A stretch of DNA of 64,000 bases, taken from the NCBI GenBank assembly GCA_025054835.1, contig JANWZQ010000134.1:1-64000 (forward strand). Reading direction: 5' to 3'. The translations under genes were made by a program, and so were the position numbers. Below are positions 5,883-15,290 of the stretch, piece after piece; the first letter of the stretch is position 1; the number at the start of each line of letters is the position of its first letter. This DNA comes from Chthonomonadaceae bacterium. GTDB lineage: Bacteria > Armatimonadota > Chthonomonadetes > Chthonomonadales > Chthonomonadaceae. The notes under the pieces are model-generated. The model searched no databases, had not been told where the DNA came from, and was given only the letters and a program-made list of their open reading frames with translations.

Positions 5883-7493
5883 TCACGGGCGAGGCGTGCG
5901 GGAGGAAGCTGGCACCTGGCGCTTGCGCGAGGCGTTCAGGTAATCCGCCATCCATCCGGCGATCGGCTCAATCTCAAACGAAGGCCAGCCGCCTGTGTCG
6001 CCACTCTGGAACAGGGTGATCCCGACAACGTAGGAGTCGCGCCTCAACTCGGAGTCCAGCCATCGGAGCCAGTTCTTGAAGTCCTCCGCGGTGCCCCGCG
6101 CCTGCCATCCCGAGGTCTGCGGGTTGCCGTCTCGATCGACCCCACCTTCCGACAGGATGAGTGGCAGATTGGCCAGATCCGGATGTCTGCGACGGAGGAA
6201 ATCGTAGAACTGCCGATAGCGCAGGGAGAACCAGTACTCCACTCCCGGGTCAGTGGTGTATTCGATTGTGTAGGAGTGGTAACTCCACGCCCCGCTGGCC
6301 GCTTTTGCCGCGCGCAACGCCGGGACAAACGCTTCCAGACGCGCTTCTATCTCCTGTGGAGTGCCCGGCGGATTGCCGACCGCGATGGAGCCCACACAGG
6401 GCCGGAACCCGTTCTGCCCGATCACACGGGCCAGTTCTGCGCTGAATCGGCCGTACCAGACTGCATCTTCCAGAGTTTCCCATGTGGGCGTGCTGTCTCC
6501 CTCATTAGGGCCTTCCACGTAGTCGATGAGCCGGCGCTCTTCCGGGGGCAGGGCGTTGATGGGCGGAGCCAGCACCGTGTTCCAGAAGTCGCGTGCGCTG
6601 GCCTCCGGGTTATCGCTACGAGTGTAGCGTTTGCGGGTGAAGATCCGCAGGAGCGTCTGGCCGTTGGGGTAGCGTGTTTTGTAGTCACGCAGAGCCTCCC
6701 GCATGTCCGCGCCGAGGTCGAGAATTTTGAGGACCCGTGGGCCTGCAGCAACGATCTGGCGTGCGCCGTTCGTGTAGCGGGCAATCAGGTGAATACTCAG
6801 GCGGCTCTGTGAGAGCGCAGGCGGGGGGGGCTGCGGGGGTTGTACGGTGACCTGCACGGCAGCAGTGCGCTCCGACTCGGTCTCCCGCACCGTGACCTGC
6901 GCACTGCCGGGCGATACCGCGGTCAGCTTTCCGTCGGCCGCAACCGTCACAACAGCCGGGCTGGACGACTCGAACCGGAGGCTGGTGGGCAGGATCAGCA
7001 CCAGATTGCCCCGGTTGTCTCTGGGGGCAACAGCCAGCGTGATGGTCTCTCCAACCTGCAGTGTGGCCTCAGACGGGGTCACTTCCAGACGTTCGATCGT
7101 GCTCTGCATGGTGATGGAGAAAGTGGTTTCCCGGCCATCCTCGATATCGATCTCTGTGGACGCGGTGGCCTGCGGGGTGCCCCGGGCCCCGGGTTCCGGG
7201 AAGGCAGTGGCCGTTGCGGTCAACCTGCCGACCGGAAGCGGGTCGAACACCACGGTAGCAGTGCCGCCCTGCTCGGGCCTCTGGAGCGTCTGGCTCTCTA
7301 CCGGGCGTCCGCTCTGGGCGATGTCGATCCGGATGCTCTGTGCTGCCGCCGGGATCAAACGGGACGGAGGAGGCCACACCACAGTGATGACAGCCCGGCC
7401 GCTTCCAGAAGGGCTCGAAGGCGCCTGTGCGCTTCCCTGACCGCAGCCGTACAGCACGAGCAACAGAAGGGGGACAAGGGGCCATGCTCTCAT
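5883..7493 (-). CDS. Lipoprotein with Ig-like (BIG2) domain and clan GH-A glycosidase domain
   Basis: This 536-residue protein has a lipoprotein signal (LLLVLYGC, Cys17). Next come a domain of beta strands (about 33-130), a BIG2-type Ig-like domain (about 135-217: LEVTPSEATLQVGE, AVSPGSAQVTV), a Pro linker and a TIM-barrel-like region. VEGPNEGD places a Glu at 331 directly after Asn, the acid/base pattern of clan GH-A. LILSEGG places Glu449 as probable nucleophile. It is therefore probably a surface-anchored glycoside hydrolase, but the family and substrate are not recognisable by eye. Its ATG overlaps the stop of the upstream lipoprotein gene, so the two are translationally coupled. Confidence 0.78.
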   Translation of the reverse strand: MRAWPLVPLLLLVLYGCGQGSAQAPSSPSGSGRAVITVVWPPPSRLIPAAAQSIRIDIAQSGRPVESQTLQRPEQGGTATVVFDPLPVGRLTATATAFPEPGARGTPQATASTEIDIEDGRETTFSITMQSTIERLEVTPSEATLQVGETITLAVAPRDNRGNLVLILPTSLRFESSSPAVVTVAADGKLTAVSPGSAQVTVRETESERTAAVQVTVQPPQPPPPALSQSRLSIHLIARYTNGARQIVAAGPRVLKILDLGADMREALRDYKTRYPNGQTLLRIFTRKRYTRSDNPEASARDFWNTVLAPPINALPPEERRLIDYVEGPNEGDSTPTWETLEDAVWYGRFSAELARVIGQNGFRPCVGSIAVGNPPGTPQEIEARLEAFVPALRAAKAASGAWSYHSYTIEYTTDPGVEYWFSLRYRQFYDFLRRRHPDLANLPLILSEGGVDRDGNPQTSGWQARGTAEDFKNWLRWLDSELRRDSYVVGITLFQSGDTGGWPSFEIEPIAGWMADYLNASRKRQVPASSRTPRP

Positions 7494-8134
7494 TGCACGG
7501 TACCTCCTGCGCTACCGGCCAGTACCCGGATTTCTGCGGTGTCTCGCTTGCTCGGATCGGCGTTGCTGATGGCGATCACATGAAAGACACCGCGCCGGCG
7601 TGGTGGCGTGTAGAGGCCGGAAGGAGTGATGCTGCCTCCCTCCGGACCCTCCTGCACCTGATAGGTCACGGACGGATCCTCCGCGTTCTGCACCACGGCG
7701 CTGAATTGCTGGGTCTGGTTGATGGTCAGCGTGGCTGTTCGGGGTGTAATGGTAACACGAACCGGCGGAACAACCGTGATCTGCGCGGTTGCAGAGCGTG
7801 TGGGAAAGGGGACGCTGGCCACGGTGACCGTATCGGGGCCCGGTGTGTCCGGTGCGGTATAGACGCCCCCGGTCGTGATGCTCCCGCGTTGCGCGCTCCA
7901 CCGGACAGAGAGATCCGTGGTGCCCAGAACCTCCGCACGGAACGTCAGGCTCTGACCCGTGACGACCCGCGCCTGTTGCGGGGAGATCAGGACATTCACC
8001 GCCGGGGGGGGCACACCGCTTGCCGACAGGTTCTGATTCGATGCGGTACTCGGTGATCCCCCGCCGCCACCGCAACCGGGCAGCAGCAGAGCCAGCACGG
8101 CACAGATCGCTTTGAGAACACGCAGCGGCCGCAT
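7490..8134 (-). CDS. Ig-like domain lipoprotein
   Basis: This 214-residue lipoprotein starts at ATG 8134. AAGGTG stands six bases upstream, while the GTG at 8164 has its SD too close. The signal ends in LLLPGC, followed by a run of Gly and a Ser/Asn-rich linker. Two similar Ig-like repeats follow: RWSAQRGSITTGGVYTAP and YQVQEGPEGGSITPSGLYTPP share the G-S-I-T-x-x-G-x-Y-T-x-P ending typical of bacterial surface adhesion modules. No catalytic motif is visible. The ATGA overlap with the glycosidase lipoprotein suggests the two work together at the cell surface. Confidence 0.78.
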   Translation of the reverse strand: MRPLRVLKAICAVLALLLPGCGGGGGSPSTASNQNLSASGVPPPAVNVLISPQQARVVTGQSLTFRAEVLGTTDLSVRWSAQRGSITTGGVYTAPDTPGPDTVTVASVPFPTRSATAQITVVPPVRVTITPRTATLTINQTQQFSAVVQNAEDPSVTYQVQEGPEGGSITPSGLYTPPRRRGVFHVIAISNADPSKRDTAEIRVLAGSAGGTVQ

Positions 8135-8222
8135 CCCGTTCACCTTACCTTCCAGAGAAATCACGCTCCTTTATTTTCCCGGAGCGCGTGGCGGAGTCCT
8201 GCGTGGTTCGTGTTGCTATGCG

Positions 8223-9767
8223 CTACAGGCCAGGTGTTTCCGGGAGACGCCCCTGGTAGGGCAGCAACGAGCGCGCTTCGGCAGCGATCAACCTTTCAAA
8301 GCGCTCCCGCCGCTTCGTGTCGCCGTACGTGCGCAGGTGATGGGCCAGAACAACGCTTTTGCCCAGGCGGACGAAGCGCAGCAGACGGGCATGGTTCACT
8401 TCCGCTTCTTCGCGCTTCGCCTGAAGCTGCGCGAGTTCCTCGGCGGCTGCAAGCAGGTCTCGGTACTCGGGCTCCTGTGCGTTGCGTGTCAGAAATTCCA
8501 CGGCCTCCCGACGGGCACGCCGGTAGGCCTCTGCCTTTCTGTCTGCGTCCTTCAGCGCGGGCCACCGTTGCAGCAGGAATCGGCGGCTTTCCCGGCGCAG
8601 GGTGCGGAAGCGACTGTCAGCGCGGCGCACTTCCGCGGCATGGTCTTTACTGTTGCCCGCCTGTACTTCCTGAAAGGCCCTGAGCAATCGGTCTTCACCC
8701 GTGCGCCCCAGGCTCTGAGAAAGAGTTTCCAGGGCGTAACGTTGCGCAGGGGTTGCCCACTGGAGCACATCGCGATACGGGGTCTGGAACACCGCTTCGT
8801 CGGGGAGAGTGACAAATCGGCGCAGATAGACATCCGAAGTACAGACCGGGACATCGATGGAGGCGTCATGGGCCAGTGTGTAGCAGAAGGCCTCGTCCAT
8901 GCCGATCCGGCCGTCCCGGTTGTAGTCGACCCCGGTGACCCTGCGCCCCACGCGATCACGGCCTGTCAGGGCTGCGAAGAAATAGGAGGTGAAATCCCGG
9001 TACTCCGCCTCGTTCAAAGCGGAGGTGCATCCAGCGGCCACCCGCTCTTTAATAGCAGCGAAGAACCCGGTAAAATCGCGCTCCACCGGCTCCTTCTGCG
9101 GGTCTCCATCTTCGAAAAGGAGATTGGCGAATGCCCCGGAGTAGCACTGCACCATAACCAGCGTGACTGGAATGGAGGCGGGCAGCTTCTGGATCTGTGC
9201 GGCCAGCTCACGCACAGAGAGACGTTCCCGGTCGCCCCAGAGATCCATCACGTTGTCATCGAAATCCCGTGATCCCGGGCTGCCGTGCCCGGTGAAGTAG
9301 AGGAAAAGAGGGCGGGGCGTGGCTGTCAGCTCGATGAGCAGCCGGTCGAACGAACGCGCAATCTCGGCCCGGTTGGCCGCGCCGTCGGGCTTCGCGCCAA
9401 GGTTTGGCCTGCGGTAGAGTTGCGGGGCCCTCTCGCTACCCTCACCGCCTTCTAACAGCAGGTGCAACAACCGTTCCCCTGCAGGGAGTTTGCGGACATC
9501 CTCTTCATACAGAACCGTTGGGTTATCCGGATTGCCGTCCGCAAAGAGGATTGTCCGCTCCGTGCCCCGGGGCAGGAGGCGACACAGGTAACGTACATTA
9601 CTCTCGATAGCAACCTGATTGTTCTGCAGGTCCGGCCCGCCACCTACGATCAACACACGCAGCAGCGGTATGCGGGATAGATCCGCCTGCGTGGCAGGGA
9701 CGCGCAACGCGCCCAGTACGCACAGGCCAATCAGGGCGATCTTTAAACGCTGGGATCGAAGAAACAC
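8223..9767 (-). CDS. Caspase-like (clan CD) cysteine peptidase with EF-hand
   Basis: This exported 514-residue protein starts at GTG 9767 (GGAG six bases before) and has a signal peptide of about 28 residues. FLYFTGHGSPG puts His161 and VTLVMVQCYSGAF puts Cys208 in the order and sequence setting of the clan CD caspase/legumain dyad. DYNRDGRIGMDE (281-292) is a complete canonical EF-hand loop, with Asp1, Asn3, Asp5, Gly6, Ile8 and Glu12. This suggests calcium binding next to the protease core, as in calcium-dependent metacaspases. The C-terminal 150 residues are charged and helical, probably coiled coil. The target is unknown. Family assignment is from motifs only. Confidence 0.72.
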   Translation of the reverse strand: MFLRSQRLKIALIGLCVLGALRVPATQADLSRIPLLRVLIVGGGPDLQNNQVAIESNVRYLCRLLPRGTERTILFADGNPDNPTVLYEEDVRKLPAGERLLHLLLEGGEGSERAPQLYRRPNLGAKPDGAANRAEIARSFDRLLIELTATPRPLFLYFTGHGSPGSRDFDDNVMDLWGDRERLSVRELAAQIQKLPASIPVTLVMVQCYSGAFANLLFEDGDPQKEPVERDFTGFFAAIKERVAAGCTSALNEAEYRDFTSYFFAALTGRDRVGRRVTGVDYNRDGRIGMDEAFCYTLAHDASIDVPVCTSDVYLRRFVTLPDEAVFQTPYRDVLQWATPAQRYALETLSQSLGRTGEDRLLRAFQEVQAGNSKDHAAEVRRADSRFRTLRRESRRFLLQRWPALKDADRKAEAYRRARREAVEFLTRNAQEPEYRDLLAAAEELAQLQAKREEAEVNHARLLRFVRLGKSVVLAHHLRTYGDTKRRERFERLIAAEARSLLPYQGRLPETPGL

Positions 9768-9787
9768 GCCGGGCTCCGTCCTGAGAA

Positions 9788-10912
9788 TTATCGACTGTCG
9801 TTTCTGCCTGATACCTGTGAAGACGGTCGGCTAGCGGAATGGTTACCGGTTTTTGCCGTCGTCGGGTCCGCGATCATGGGCTCAATCTCTATCGGGTGCA
9901 GGATGTGCGGGGTGCCGCGCGCGGTTGCCAGATCGGCACCGGAGTGCGCGCGTTCCTGCGCGGCCCGGAAGCTCCGTCGCACAAATTCATAGTCGGCTGC
10001 AACCTCGGCTCCCAGTAGCAGGATCGCCATCGAGTAGTAGATCCAGACCACCAGAATCACCACGCTCCCGAGCGAACCGTACAGGCGATCGTAACTGTTG
10101 ACGTAGATGAGTGAGAAGCTGAACAGCACCTTGCTGGCCTGCCAGAGCAGTGCGGCAACGCTGGCTCCCAGAATGGCCGCTTTCCACGGGATGGTGCGGG
10201 CAGGCAGGTACCGGTAGATCTGCACGAACAGCATGGTGGTCAGGATCACCGGTACCGCGCCCAGACCAATACGCAACAGGGTGGTCTCCACATTGCCGGG
10301 CAGGAAGGGAATGTGCTGGGTTTCCAGATACGCGAAGAAAGCGGAGCTGGCAAGATCCGCACTCAGGAGCAACAGAGCGAACAATGTGACACCGATGGCA
10401 GTCAGCCGTTGCTGGAACCACGGGCGGGTCTCCGGCACGTTCCAGATGATGTTCATCACCGGTTGCATGGAGAGGAACGTCTGATGTGCGGTGAAGAGCA
10501 ATCCCAGAAGGCCGAAAGTGCCAATGAGCCGTTTGTCGTTGATGATGCGTCGGAGCAACTCCTTGAGCAGGGGAGGATCCACAGGGACGTAGCTTTTCAG
10601 TGCGACCAGTACATCGTTAAGCGCCGATTCGGAACTGCCCATGAAGAAGCCCAGCACGGAGATACCGACTGCCAGCAGGGGCACTACCGAAAGAAGCGCA
10701 CTGAAGGCGCAGGCACCGGCAAGCAGACCACACTGATGGGTGTTGTAGGCATCGGTGATACGCCTGAGGTAGCAGTAGATGCGACGTGGCACACTGCGCT
10801 TGCGAGTAGGACGCTCGCCACATCCCGAGAGGACTATCAGACGACGCTCCAACCGTTTCCATGACCAGAACCGACGTCGGGCGCGCGTTCTGTATGCCGT
10901 CTGATCTGCCAA
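9788..10912 (-). CDS. YihY/BrkB family membrane protein
   Basis: This 374-residue integral membrane protein is of the YihY/BrkB (formerly wrongly called RNase BN) family. Signature regions include GLLAGACAFSALLSVVPLLA at the first helix, SMQPVMNIIWNVPETRPW in the middle, and GSLGSVVILVVWIYYSMAIL near the end. The function of the family is not settled; transport has been proposed. The frame starts with TTG 10912 and no other good start lies before the first helix. The Arg-rich N-terminus and the roughly 40-residue polar C-terminal tail are cytoplasmic by the positive-inside rule. Confidence 0.88.
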   Translation of the reverse strand: MADQTAYRTRARRRFWSWKRLERRLIVLSGCGERPTRKRSVPRRIYCYLRRITDAYNTHQCGLLAGACAFSALLSVVPLLAVGISVLGFFMGSSESALNDVLVALKSYVPVDPPLLKELLRRIINDKRLIGTFGLLGLLFTAHQTFLSMQPVMNIIWNVPETRPWFQQRLTAIGVTLFALLLLSADLASSAFFAYLETQHIPFLPGNVETTLLRIGLGAVPVILTTMLFVQIYRYLPARTIPWKAAILGASVAALLWQASKVLFSFSLIYVNSYDRLYGSLGSVVILVVWIYYSMAILLLGAEVAADYEFVRRSFRAAQERAHSGADLATARGTPHILHPIEIEPMIADPTTAKTGNHSASRPSSQVSGRNDSR

Positions 10913-10929
10913 AGGCGTTCGTGTTCCCT

Positions 10930-11550
10930 TCAGGTAGCTACCTGAAACAGGCGTTGCAGATACGTCACAGCTTCCGCCAGAGCCTTGCCACGATGGCTGA
11001 TCCGATGTTTCTCCTCCGGGGGCAGTTCGGCCATATGCCGGCCCAGCTCCGGGAGGTAGAAGATCGGATCATAGCCAAACCCGAAAGAGCCGCGCATGGT
11101 CCGGGCGATACGTCCCTCGCACGCTCCCTGACATGCGAACATCTGTCCCTCCGGCGTGGCGATGACCACCGCACAGACGAAGCGAGCGGATCGTTGCTCC
11201 TCGGGCACATCGCGCATCATTTCCAGGATCCGCGCCATTTTAACCTCGAAAGGGGTCCCGGCACCGAGAAAGCGGTGCGAGCGTACGCCGGGCTGACCCC
11301 CGAGCGCGTCGATGACCAGACCGCCATCGTCGGCAATGGCGGTCAGCCGGGTATGTCGGGCGGTTGCTGCGGCCTTCAGGTGTGCATTCTCCAGAAAGGT
11401 TTCCCCGGTCTCTTCCACCTCAGGCATGTCGGGAAACGCGGACAGTGGGACGAAATCCAGTCCGGGTAGCGCGGCCGTCAGGATCTGGGCCATCTCACCG
11501 CCCTTTTTGACATTGGTCGTGGCGATCACCACAGTGCGTTCCGGATCCAC
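10930..11550 (-). CDS. rdgB: XTP/dITP diphosphatase (RdgB/HAM1)
   Basis: This 206-residue nucleoside triphosphate pyrophosphatase removes XTP, ITP and dITP from the nucleotide pool. Family landmarks are ATTNVKKGGE at the N-terminus, ETGETFLENAHLKA, IADDGGLVIDALGGQPGV and GFGYDPIFYLPELG; the RISHRGKAL end is also typical. The start is GTG 11550 with AGGAGG four bases before. It follows rph by 22 bases, the usual rph-rdgB pairing. Confidence 0.95.
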   Translation of the reverse strand: MDPERTVVIATTNVKKGGEMAQILTAALPGLDFVPLSAFPDMPEVEETGETFLENAHLKAAATARHTRLTAIADDGGLVIDALGGQPGVRSHRFLGAGTPFEVKMARILEMMRDVPEEQRSARFVCAVVIATPEGQMFACQGACEGRIARTMRGSFGFGYDPIFYLPELGRHMAELPPEEKHRISHRGKALAEAVTYLQRLFQVAT

Positions 11551-11572
11551 GGAGCCTCCTCAGGAACAGGGG

Positions 11573-12298
11573 TTACAGAATGCCCTCCAGCGCGATGCGT
11601 TGCAGGCGAAACAGCTCGTCCAGACCGATCTGGGCCAGATCCAGCAGGCGACACAGACGCGCCCGATCGAACGGTTGTTGCTCTCCGGTGCCCTGCACCT
11701 CGATGTAGCGCCCTTTGTCGGTGGCTACCACGTTCATGTCCACCAGACATCGTGAGTCCTCGGCGTACGCCAGATCCAGCAACTCGTCGGAGCCAACCAC
11801 CCCGACACTGACCGCAGCAACCTGCCCGAGGAGTGGCATCCGGTTGATGGCACCGGTTTCCACCAGATAGTGACACGCCTCGGCGAGAGCCACAAAGGCC
11901 CCGGTGATCGCGGCGCATCGAGTGCCGCCATCTGCCTGCAGCACGTCACAGTCCAGCCAGATGGTGCGTTCGCCCAGTACCGGGAGCTCCACCACCGTGC
12001 GCAGGCTCCGCCCGATCAGTCTCTGGATTTCCACCGTGCGCCCGCTGGGTCCGGTTCTGTTCTCCCGGGGGGTGCGTACGCTCGTGGAGCGCGGCAACAT
12101 GCTGTATTCGGCGGTGACCCACCCCAGCTGACCTTCCTGCTTCCGGAATGTCGGGAGCTTGTCTTCCACCGAGGCCGTGCAGATCACCCGGGTGTTCCCC
12201 ATCTCGATCAGGCACGATCCTTCGGCGTTGGGCATGAAGCCGCGGGTCAGGCGCGTCACACGCATCTGATGACTGCCGCGTCCATCTGGTCTTGGCAT
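11573..12298 (-). CDS. rph: Ribonuclease PH
   Basis: This 241-residue phosphorolytic 3-prime exoribonuclease trims tRNA ends. It begins [11 protein letters not shown], contains the substrate-binding run [11 protein letters not shown], and the conserved [20 protein letters not shown] in the centre. Length is normal for the family. GGGAG stands nine bases before ATG 12298. It is cotranscribed with rdgB immediately downstream. Confidence 0.96.
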
Positions 12299-12382
12299 AC
12301 CGGTGTTCTCCCCTCTCTGACAATCTCTTTGAGCGGGGCAACCGTTCCACAGAGCCCTGACGATTTCCTGCCATGACGCGTT

Positions 12383-13669
12383 TCATGGAGTGGCACTGCG
12401 GAAAACGAGTGCCGCGTTGATGCCCCCGAATCCGAAGGAGTTGGAGAGCACAGTTCGCAGCTGCGCCGATCGTCCCCGGTGTGGCACGCAATCCAGGTCA
12501 CACTCCGGGTCCGGATGATCCAGATTGACGGTGGGCGGGATCCATCCATGATGCAGGGCGAGGCAGCAGATGGCCGCTTCCATGGCACCCGTGGCGCCGA
12601 GCGCATGGCCGTGCATGGCCTTGGTGCTGCTCACGGGTACATTCCGGGCGACCTCTTCACCCAGAGCGCGCTTCAGGGCATACGTCTCTGTGACGTCATT
12701 GAGACGGGTGGAGGATCCGTGCGCGTTCACGTAGTCCAGCTCTTCTGGAGCGACCTGCGCGGACTGCAGGGCGAGGCGAATGCATCGGGCGGCGCTCCCG
12801 GCGTCCGGGCGTGGCATGGTCATGTGATGCGCGTCCATGGTGGCGGCAAACCCGCAGAGCTCGGCATAAATGCGCGCTCCGCGACGCAGGGCACGCTCTC
12901 GCTCTTCCAGAAGCAGCACGGCCGCTCCCTCTCCCATGACAAAACCGTCCCGATCCCGGTCGAAAGGGCGACAGGCGCGTTCCGGCTCTGCATTGCGTCT
13001 GGAGAGCGCGCCAATGAAGGTGAACGCGCCGAAGCAGAGCGGGGCGAGTGGAGCCTCGGCGCCGCCGGCCAGCATGACGTCGGCATCCTTGCGGCGGATC
13101 GCGTGCCACGCATTGCCAATAGCGATTGCACCCGAAGCGCAGGAATCTGCGTTGGAGGAGCTGAAACCGGTCAATCCGAGCAGGATCGAGGCATTGCAGG
13201 CACCCGCCCCCACAAACATTTGCAGAGCCAGAACGGGACTGACTGCGCGCGGACCCCGATCCAGAAAAGCCGCATGTTGCCCTTCCGCCCATCCTGCTCC
13301 CCCCAGTGCACTGCCCAGACACACCCCGATCCGGGATCGATCCTCGGTGGAGAGATCGATCCCGGCGTCGCGCACAGCCTGCAGGCACGCCACCACAGCG
13401 TACTGGCTGCAGGGATCCAGTCGCCGACGCGTGCGCTGGTCCAGATAGTCCGCGGGGTCAAAATCATTGACCTGCGCGGCAATGTGACAGGAGAACGGAG
13501 TCGGGTCGAAGCGGGTGATGCGTTGCACCGCCGAACGCTCTTGCAGAACGCCCGACCATAAACCTTCCGGGCCGCTTCCGATAGGGGTAATCGCCCCGAT
13601 GCCTGTGACGACAACCCTCCGGGCGGGGAGACTATCCGTGTGACATGTTGTCGTCTGCGCGAGCGCCAT
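12383..13669 (-). CDS. Beta-ketoacyl-ACP synthase II-like (FabF family)
   Basis: From ATG 13669 this is a 428-residue decarboxylating ketosynthase. The triad is complete: Cys177 in NADSCASGA, His317 in VNAHGSST and His355 in KAMHGHALGATG, with Lys350. The sequence around the nucleophile (NADSCASG) differs from the common TACATS of housekeeping FabF, so this may be a specialised ketosynthase. It overlaps by 38 bases the end of an SRPBCC/cyclase-like gene, a partner common in type II polyketide or modified fatty-acid systems. No acyl carrier protein or chain-length factor lies nearby. An N-terminal extension to 13735 is rejected because it is Arg-rich shadow sequence. Confidence 0.9.
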   Translation of the reverse strand: MALAQTTTCHTDSLPARRVVVTGIGAITPIGSGPEGLWSGVLQERSAVQRITRFDPTPFSCHIAAQVNDFDPADYLDQRTRRRLDPCSQYAVVACLQAVRDAGIDLSTEDRSRIGVCLGSALGGAGWAEGQHAAFLDRGPRAVSPVLALQMFVGAGACNASILLGLTGFSSSNADSCASGAIAIGNAWHAIRRKDADVMLAGGAEAPLAPLCFGAFTFIGALSRRNAEPERACRPFDRDRDGFVMGEGAAVLLLEERERALRRGARIYAELCGFAATMDAHHMTMPRPDAGSAARCIRLALQSAQVAPEELDYVNAHGSSTRLNDVTETYALKRALGEEVARNVPVSSTKAMHGHALGATGAMEAAICCLALHHGWIPPTVNLDHPDPECDLDCVPHRGRSAQLRTVLSNSFGFGGINAALVFRSATP

Positions 13670-14147
13670 GAAGTTCCGTCGCTCTCTCTTCCGCCTCAAC
13701 AATCGCCTGGAAGCGGCGCAGGGTCTGACCGGCAATGTGGTGGACGAACAGCTGTCCTACCACGTGATGAGCGAACCATGGACCCAGCAGGGGGATCGGG
13801 TAGTCCAGCCAGTGCGCGATCGTGACTTCTGCGCCATCCGGGCGGGGCACGATCCGCCACTCCACGCGCATGCCACGTGTGATCCCACCGATATGCTCAA
13901 AGGTGATACGCCCTGCTTCCGGGAACAGTTCCTGCCGTGCCCGCCATCGGCAGGGGATGCGCCACCCGAAATCGCGATAGGCCCCGAAATCGGCGATTTT
14001 ATGACGCTCGGAGTGTTCCAGCACGCGCATACGCCAGTAGTGAGGCAGCAGGCGCGGCCAGTCCTGGAGGTTGGAAGCCAGCTCGAAAACACGGCGGCAG
14101 ACGCGTTCAGGATCTCCACGGATGGAAACAGTGTTCTCAATGTACAT
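13632..14147 (-). CDS. SRPBCC-fold protein (polyketide cyclase/aromatase-like)
   Basis: This 171-residue protein has START/SRPBCC character. It begins with a strand and IRGDPERVCRRVFELASNL, followed by DWPRLLPHYWRMRVLEHS and alternating strands, and ends in a long helix (GQTLRRFQAIVEAEERA). Such domains bind hydrophobic ligands, and relatives include polyketide cyclases and CoQ-binding proteins. Its end overlaps the ketosynthase start by 38 bases, so the two are translationally coupled and probably act on the same acyl chain. The catalytic role is inferred. Confidence 0.78.
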   Translation of the reverse strand: MYIENTVSIRGDPERVCRRVFELASNLQDWPRLLPHYWRMRVLEHSERHKIADFGAYRDFGWRIPCRWRARQELFPEAGRITFEHIGGITRGMRVEWRIVPRPDGAEVTIAHWLDYPIPLLGPWFAHHVVGQLFVHHIAGQTLRRFQAIVEAEERATELHGARADDNMSHG

Positions 14148-14165: not shown

Positions 14166-15290
14166 TCAGACGCACAGCTGATCCGGATTCAGGCCCTGCA
14201 GTTCTGGCAGGACGAACAGGCCGTCTTTGCGCACCAGCACATCGTCGAAGTAGATCTCGCCGCCACCGAACTCCGGTCGCTGGATGCAGACCATGTCCCA
14301 GTGGATCTGAGAGCGGTTGCCGTTGTCGGCCTCCTCATAGGCCTGGCCGGGAGTCAGGTGGAAACTCCCGGCGATTTTCTCGTCGAATAGAATGTCTTTC
14401 ATGGGCCGCAGGATGTGCGGATGGAAAGCCAGAGACCACTCGCCCACATAGCGCGCGCCCTCATCTGCGTCCAGAATTTCGTTCAGCTTCGGCGTGTCAT
14501 TGCCCGCAGTCGCCTCCACGATGCGGCCATCGCGGAACACAAGCCGGACGTTCTGGAACACCGTGCCACGGTAAAGTGTCTCACAGTTGAACTGGATAAC
14601 ACCGTTGACCGAGTCGCGAATGGGGCAGGTGAAGATCTCACCGTCCGGAATGTTGGCCTCACCGGCGCAGGGAACAGAGGGAATGCCTTTCTTGTGAAAC
14701 GTCAGGTCGGTTCCCGGCCCGACGATCCGTACCCGGTCTGTGCGGTCCATCAACGCATGCAGGGGTTTCATCGCTTCCGCCATGCGCGCATAGTCCACTC
14801 CGATGCAGGCGCGGAAGTAGAAGTCCTCAAAAGCCTCTGTGCTCATACCGGCAGCCTGCGCCATGCTAGCATTGGGCCACCGCAACACCACCCAGCGGGT
14901 CTTTCGAACGCGGATCTCTCCGTGTACCGTTTTCCAGACGAGTCGTTCATACAGCGCCATCCGATCCCCGGGCACGTCGCTCATCTCGCTGATATTCTGC
15001 GTACCACGGACGCCAATGTAGCACTGCATCGCTTCCATGCGCGCGCGTTCCACCTCCCCGAGCAATTGCATCTGTGCCTCGCTGGCCGTCTGGTAGAGGG
15101 CACGCAGGACTTCCGTCTGGTAGGTGCTGACCAGAGGGATCCCTCCGGCCTCATGCACCGTACGGAGAAGCGCAGTCGTGAAAGCGGGCGGAACATCAAA
15201 CGTCTCAATCAGGGTTTTATCGCCCGGCTGAACTTTGATGGAGTGCCGGGTCAGCACGCGGGCCAGTTCCGCGTAACGCGGGTCTTTCAT
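14166..15290 (-). CDS. M29-family metallo-aminopeptidase
   Basis: This 374-residue thermophilic-type aminopeptidase (AmpS/AmpT, M29) releases N-terminal residues in the cytoplasm. Metal and catalytic positions are visible: GEANIPDGE (Glu211, Glu218), GEWSL (Glu284), FHLT (His311) and SQIHWDM (His330, Asp332). The N-terminal portion carries the M29 substrate domain pattern (VQPGDKTLIE). GGAGG lies nine bases before ATG 15290. It is 18 bases upstream of the SRPBCC gene, so operon membership is possible but functionally unexplained. Confidence 0.93.
   Translation of the reverse strand: MKDPRYAELARVLTRHSIKVQPGDKTLIETFDVPPAFTTALLRTVHEAGGIPLVSTYQTEVLRALYQTASEAQMQLLGEVERARMEAMQCYIGVRGTQNISEMSDVPGDRMALYERLVWKTVHGEIRVRKTRWVVLRWPNASMAQAAGMSTEAFEDFYFRACIGVDYARMAEAMKPLHALMDRTDRVRIVGPGTDLTFHKKGIPSVPCAGEANIPDGEIFTCPIRDSVNGVIQFNCETLYRGTVFQNVRLVFRDGRIVEATAGNDTPKLNEILDADEGARYVGEWSLAFHPHILRPMKDILFDEKIAGSFHLTPGQAYEEADNGNRSQIHWDMVCIQRPEFGGGEIYFDDVLVRKDGLFVLPELQGLNPDQLCV

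Follow-up and report, generated by a model that had tools for sequence, protein, structure and literature searches.

A conserved EF-type loop in a putatively exported, C13-like clan CD peptidase family of Armatimonadota

What kind of peptidase is encoded at positions 8223..9767 (minus strand) of the window, the whole 64,000-nucleotide stretch of DNA analyzed here, and does the EF-type loop in its sequence serve as a calcium site? The first-pass annotation had described the product as an exported, metacaspase-like protease with a canonical EF-hand. Several clan CD enzymes are known to use calcium as a cofactor, and the bacterial secreted enzymes clostripain (C11) and gingipain (C25) of this clan are associated with Ca2+ (PMC4357240).

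The gene consists of a single open frame of 514 codons, which starts with GTG and, stop codon included, runs from 9767 to 8223. A putative Shine-Dalgarno sequence, GGAG (9774..9777, minus strand), lies 6 bases upstream of the start codon, and the BrkB-family gene that precedes it on the same strand ends with its stop at 9788. When the source genome was searched, a single copy of the gene was found. Residues 1-28 (9684..9767; all features of the protein are on the minus strand) resemble a signal peptide, being basic at first, then hydrophobic (IALIGLCVLGAL) and ending in PATQA. As a hydrophobic stretch of the signal-peptide type opens every aligned full-length member of the family, export is likely, as had been proposed.

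Within the translation of this frame, a catalytic-type His161 was located in FTGHG (9285..9287), a catalytic-type Cys208 in VMVQCYSG (9144..9146) and a 12-residue EF-type loop, DYNRDGRIGMDE, at D281-E292 (8892..8927), all three where the first-pass annotation had placed them. A conserved helix is predicted ahead of the loop at residues 256-268 (YRDFTSYFFAALT; 8964..9002), and an exit helix is predicted at residues 290-300 (MDEAFCYTLAH; 8868..8900), both from secondary structure of low confidence. The C-terminal tail (residues 331-500; 8268..8777) was predicted to be helical, again in line with the earlier description, and its pLDDT was about 60-90 over residues 331-490 (moderate to good confidence).

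Relatives were collected by protein and profile searches. The protein search found the gene in 26 of 61 genomes, and the profile search of Armatimonadota found relatives in 57 of 291 genomes, six of these 57 being represented by distant C13-type proteins (the L062-L067 group). Named relatives come from Armatimonadetes and Chthonomonas metagenome assemblies. No relatives were found on the viral contigs searched, and the single weak match among plasmids was judged meaningless.

The relatives that keep the dyad invariant share roughly 37-56 % identity. When 22 full-length members were aligned, His161, Gln207, Cys208, D281, G286 and E292 were invariant; counting all sequences that cover each position, the catalytic-type His is conserved in 25/25 and the Cys in 24/24. 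A second Cys, Cys247 in AAGCT (9027-9029), is likewise invariant wherever sequences cover that position. Loss of the EF-hand in close homologues was looked for, and the loop was retained: D1, G6 and E12 are present in all 25 sequences that cover it, and position 5 is D or N and position 13 Ala in the same 25. Position 3 is N or D in 22 of them and Arg in the other three, all of which belong to one genus and have an intact dyad. The mean majority fraction among the aligned members was 0.81 for the loop, compared with 0.84 for the Cys strand and 0.46 for the tail, so that the loop is conserved about on par with the best-kept core parts of the protein.

Further relatives (L068-L075) also retain the loop, and the spacing from Cys to loop is 73 residues where measured (74 in L076). 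The middle part of the tail (residues 379-451) is mostly absent from several relatives. Since more distant relatives that have lost most of the helical tail still have the loop, the loop belongs to the catalytic portion and not to the tail. Judged from the alignment, the tail does not define the family.

When the window protein was compared with the Pfam and NCBIfam models, none reached its cut-off. Peptidase_C13 (PF01650) was among the nearest, with 13.5 bits against a gathering cut-off of 22.8, and relatives of the same family score narrowly above this cut-off (24.6 and 24.1 bits, and 23.5 bits for L084). Peptidase C14 (PF00656) did not match the window protein, and among the relatives its best E-value was 0.0049, none being over the cut-off. 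The NCBIfam model NF047832 (caspase_w_EACC1) left the window protein unmatched and gave weak matches in 19 of 22 family members, the relatives tested scoring about 20 bits against a cut-off of 140 bits. No C11 model matched the family, and C25 was matched weakly in single relatives (E-values of 0.015 and 0.066, below the cut-off).

The family profile also retrieves the distant Armatimonadota group L062-L067, in which five aligned members match C13 (best E-value 1.6e-11). Profile-profile comparison, in which part of the similarity is due to selection (the family profile itself had retrieved this C13-type group, and the C14 group had been chosen for its loops), gave a probability of 99.1 (E-value 1.5e-18) for the C13-type group, with His, Cys and the EF-type loops in register, and 97.0 (E-value 9.3e-11) for the loop-bearing C14 group, with the dyad in register and the loops colinear. 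For this reason the comparison was repeated with the EF region removed. The C13-type group then reached 97.9 (E-value 5.3e-13) and the C14 group 96.2 (E-value 2.5e-9), the catalytic residues still being aligned, and reversed and column-shuffled control templates gave probabilities of 0.2 or less. Conservation, profile alignment and these negative controls identify an ordered dyad, His in an HG motif and then Cys, that is homologous to the dyad of known clan CD members. By profile homology the window family belongs firmly to clan CD, which supports the caspase-like cysteine peptidase proposed at first, and by the same measure a C13-like assignment is a better fit than C14.

The motifs can be set beside those of the known families. 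Like the bacterial and archaeal Peptidase C13 proteins (legumain family), the window protein has an HG motif followed by a QC motif; it differs from them in its long helical tail and in the spacer that precedes the loop. Legumain itself cleaves after Asn/Asp and is activated by acid. The C13 group of Armatimonadota shares with it a helix ending in AALTG, the EF-type loop and the exit helix. Prokaryotic C14 caspase homologs (orthocaspases; PF00656 and NF047832) have the same HG...C order as the window family, and a subset of them resembles the window protein in carrying an EF-type loop, immediately after an 'FT..L..GL.G' helix. The context of the Cys differs, being QC[YFH]SG in the window family and DACHSG in the C14 orthocaspases.

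Metacaspases (C14B) have in common with the window family the clan CD dyad and a connection with calcium. They bind Ca2+ through acidic p20 residues and the p10 280-loop (PMC4357240, PMC5756287), whereas the p10 calcium motif D(X)QTSAD is absent from the translation of the window protein. The metacaspase models did not fit either, and the best profile affinity is with C13 (legumain-type); the metacaspase-like identity put forward at first was thus not supported. Sequence searches of the PDB with the family gave no significant match, and a profile search listed Metacaspase-4 at an E-value of 0.93. PADLOC returned a weak 'caspase' match (E-value 0.03) that lacked a defence context.

The loop itself has ligand-type residues at positions 1, 3, 5 and 12 and Gly at position 6, as an EF-hand loop should. 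The protein contains a single match to the strict 12-residue pattern, which was found in 0.2 % of 20,000 residue shuffles. The PROSITE-style strict pattern, which includes a hydrophobic residue 13, was not matched, as residue 13 is Ala; the 12-residue part alone fits. No Pfam EF-hand model was over the cut-off in the family, and none matched the window protein. The word 'canonical' used in the first-pass annotation is therefore apt for the 12-residue loop and does not extend to residue 13 or to the Pfam models. Judged by its ligand-type residues, the loop is likely to bind calcium in the window family.

In caspases, the strand of the catalytic Cys is followed by a segment that enters the small-subunit half of the fold, where helices alpha4 and alpha5 are found. 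By analogy, the conserved FTSYFFAALTG helix of the window protein, its loop and its EAFCYTL helix can be matched to such an alpha4-loop-alpha5 unit, which suggests that the loop is a helix-loop-helix inside the catalytic fold and not an added regulatory domain. The secondary structure predicted around the loop is compatible with helix-loop-helix at low confidence. Structure models were built from an alignment of the window protein and three near-identical relatives, and their mean pLDDT was 52 when the full protein was modelled and 40 when the catalytic part was taken by itself; in these low-confidence models the order of strands and helices agrees with a caspase-type fold, and the dyad and the loop are not placeable. 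When both models were searched with Foldseek, no match was obtained at an E-value of 0.001 or better, and the weak matches include legumain, GPI transamidase, C11 and caspase-1.

The first-pass annotation regarded the combination of peptidase and EF-hand as unusual, and proteins with the same order of C14 or C13 peptidase and EF-type loop were sought. They were found in Armatimonadota, Actinomycetota and an archaeon. In the C13-type Armatimonadota group, DANGNGKVSIVE and similar loops follow the helix ending in AALTG, and a clear Pfam C13 protein from another Armatimonadota genome (42.3 bits) carries DTNGDGKISVRE. In the archaeal protein WP_015313957.1 of Methanomethylovorans hollandica, which is plasmid-borne and annotated as a C13 family peptidase, DTNSDGRISATE lies downstream of the QC motif. 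Plasmid C14 proteins have loops in the same setting, DLDGDGNITLDE in Nonomuraea and DRDGDGWISVSD in Streptomyces; NF047832 matches the Nonomuraea protein at 6 to 221 and so spans its loop at 200-211. The breadth outside Armatimonadota comes from a few plasmid records.

We also analyzed 90 C14-type frames of Armatimonadota, which are the higher-scoring matches and not a random sample. A canonical loop was found in seven of them, each time directly behind the 'FT..L..GL.G' helix, and nowhere else in their 40,802 residues. Other C14 proteins have broken or degenerate versions of the loop at the equivalent place. An EF-hand motif has been listed in seven archaeal orthocaspases (PMC6426788). By sequence, the combination of C13 or C14 peptidase and EF-type loop keeps recurring, although the open literature searched has little to say about it, and the description as unusual could not be upheld.

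The genes around the locus and some relatives offer further observations. Upstream on the same strand (9788-14147, minus) stands a run of BrkB/YihY family, Ham1 family, RNase PH, beta-ketoacyl synthase and polyketide cyclase/lipid transport family genes, followed by an M29-family metallopeptidase gene at 14166-15290 (minus; E-value 1.4e-50). On the other side, two adjacent lipoprotein-like genes (5883-8164, minus) have bacterial Ig-like (Big_2) matches over the cut-off and separate the peptidase gene from an oligopeptide-transport-type gene cluster. This pair was not seen beside the relatives examined, and none of the window's other neighbour genes recurs there, so that no conserved operon was found. 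In one Armatimonadota relative (L072:1740-3965, plus strand), the window-type peptidase frame runs on into a BSP metallopeptidase domain (PF04450, E-value 2.1e-17), and two protease domains may be fused there. The C14 caspase-domain protein at L094:58-2247 (plus strand), with similar frames in L088 and L092, has an EF-type loop and a match over the cut-off to the S-layer homology (SLH) domain, which suggests that proteins of this type are cell-surface caspase homologs.

From the computed ORF, its conservation, its homology and the colinear dyad and loop, we consider it probable that the window protein is an exported clan CD cysteine endopeptidase whose fold is stabilized by one Ca2+ in the EF-type loop, the ion being a structural cofactor. 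The signal peptide would be cleaved on export, after which the enzyme would use His161 and Cys208 as its catalytic dyad to cut peptide bonds of proteins outside the cytoplasm. The loop, which would connect the counterparts of the small-subunit helices alpha4 and alpha5 of caspases, would hold one Ca2+, and the bound ion would pin both helices and so stabilize the substrate-side half of the exported enzyme. An extracellular setting fits the signal-peptide-like N-termini, the relative with the BSP domain and the SLH-bearing C14 relative. A search of the open literature gave no report of activity or calcium for the window family.

Calcium could instead act as a switch, in line with the calcium regulation suggested by the first-pass annotation: the precursor would be inactive inside the cell, where calcium is low, and Ca2+ binding to the EF-type loop would activate it after export. 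The strong conservation of the loop would suit such a protease, as would its location, in the half of the fold responsible for the shape of the substrate pocket in caspases. Metacaspases are in fact activated by Ca2+, at other sites (PMC4357240, PMC5756287). Several points make a switch unlikely, however: the loop is single and unpaired, export by itself would already keep the enzyme away from targets in the cytoplasm, calcium is as a rule abundant outside cells, and MaOC1, the one biochemically characterized prokaryotic orthocaspase, is reported to be Ca2+-independent (PMC8283722, PMC5756287). The genus with Arg at position 3 also pairs its degraded site with an intact dyad; as the site is not indispensable, this genus counts against the structural ion as well, and so does MaOC1.

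The same Arg, together with the Ala that every member has at position 13, the absence of a Pfam EF-hand model above the cut-off and the degenerate versions found at the same place in related C14 proteins, would fit a loop that had lost Ca2+ binding in the window family and retained its EF-like sequence to serve as a turn and as a helix cap. We give this a rather smaller chance than the switch, as ligand-type side chains occupy positions 1, 3, 5 and 12 in 22/25 sequences, with D1, G6 and E12 invariant. It is most improbable that the protein is inactive as a peptidase and serves as an exported scaffold or binding protein of caspase-type fold. Bacteria do have pseudo-orthocaspases (PMC6426788), and for the window protein no substrate or partner is known and no conserved neighbour gene was found; but the published pseudo-variants carry Tyr and Ser in place of the catalytic residues, whereas His and Cys are invariant across this divergent family.

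A wider proposal can be made, though we hold it to be doubtful: a Ca2+ site of the EF type, placed where alpha4 joins alpha5, may be an old feature common to the prokaryotic C13- and C14-type clan CD peptidases that some lineages retained and others lost, with the window family as its best-conserved example. If so, many prokaryotic enzymes would bind calcium at a site unlike that of the metacaspases, and the view that prokaryotic orthocaspases make no use of calcium because p10 is missing from them would be contradicted. Published work links calcium in this protease group to the metacaspase p10 sites, yet the EF-type loop recurs in C13 and C14 catalytic folds. The C13-like branch of the window protein, so far found only in Armatimonadota, adds an unnamed and well-conserved branch to this large group of proteases, and it offers a clean test case for asking whether prokaryotic clan CD peptidases in general have an overlooked calcium site in the EF-type loop that they share.
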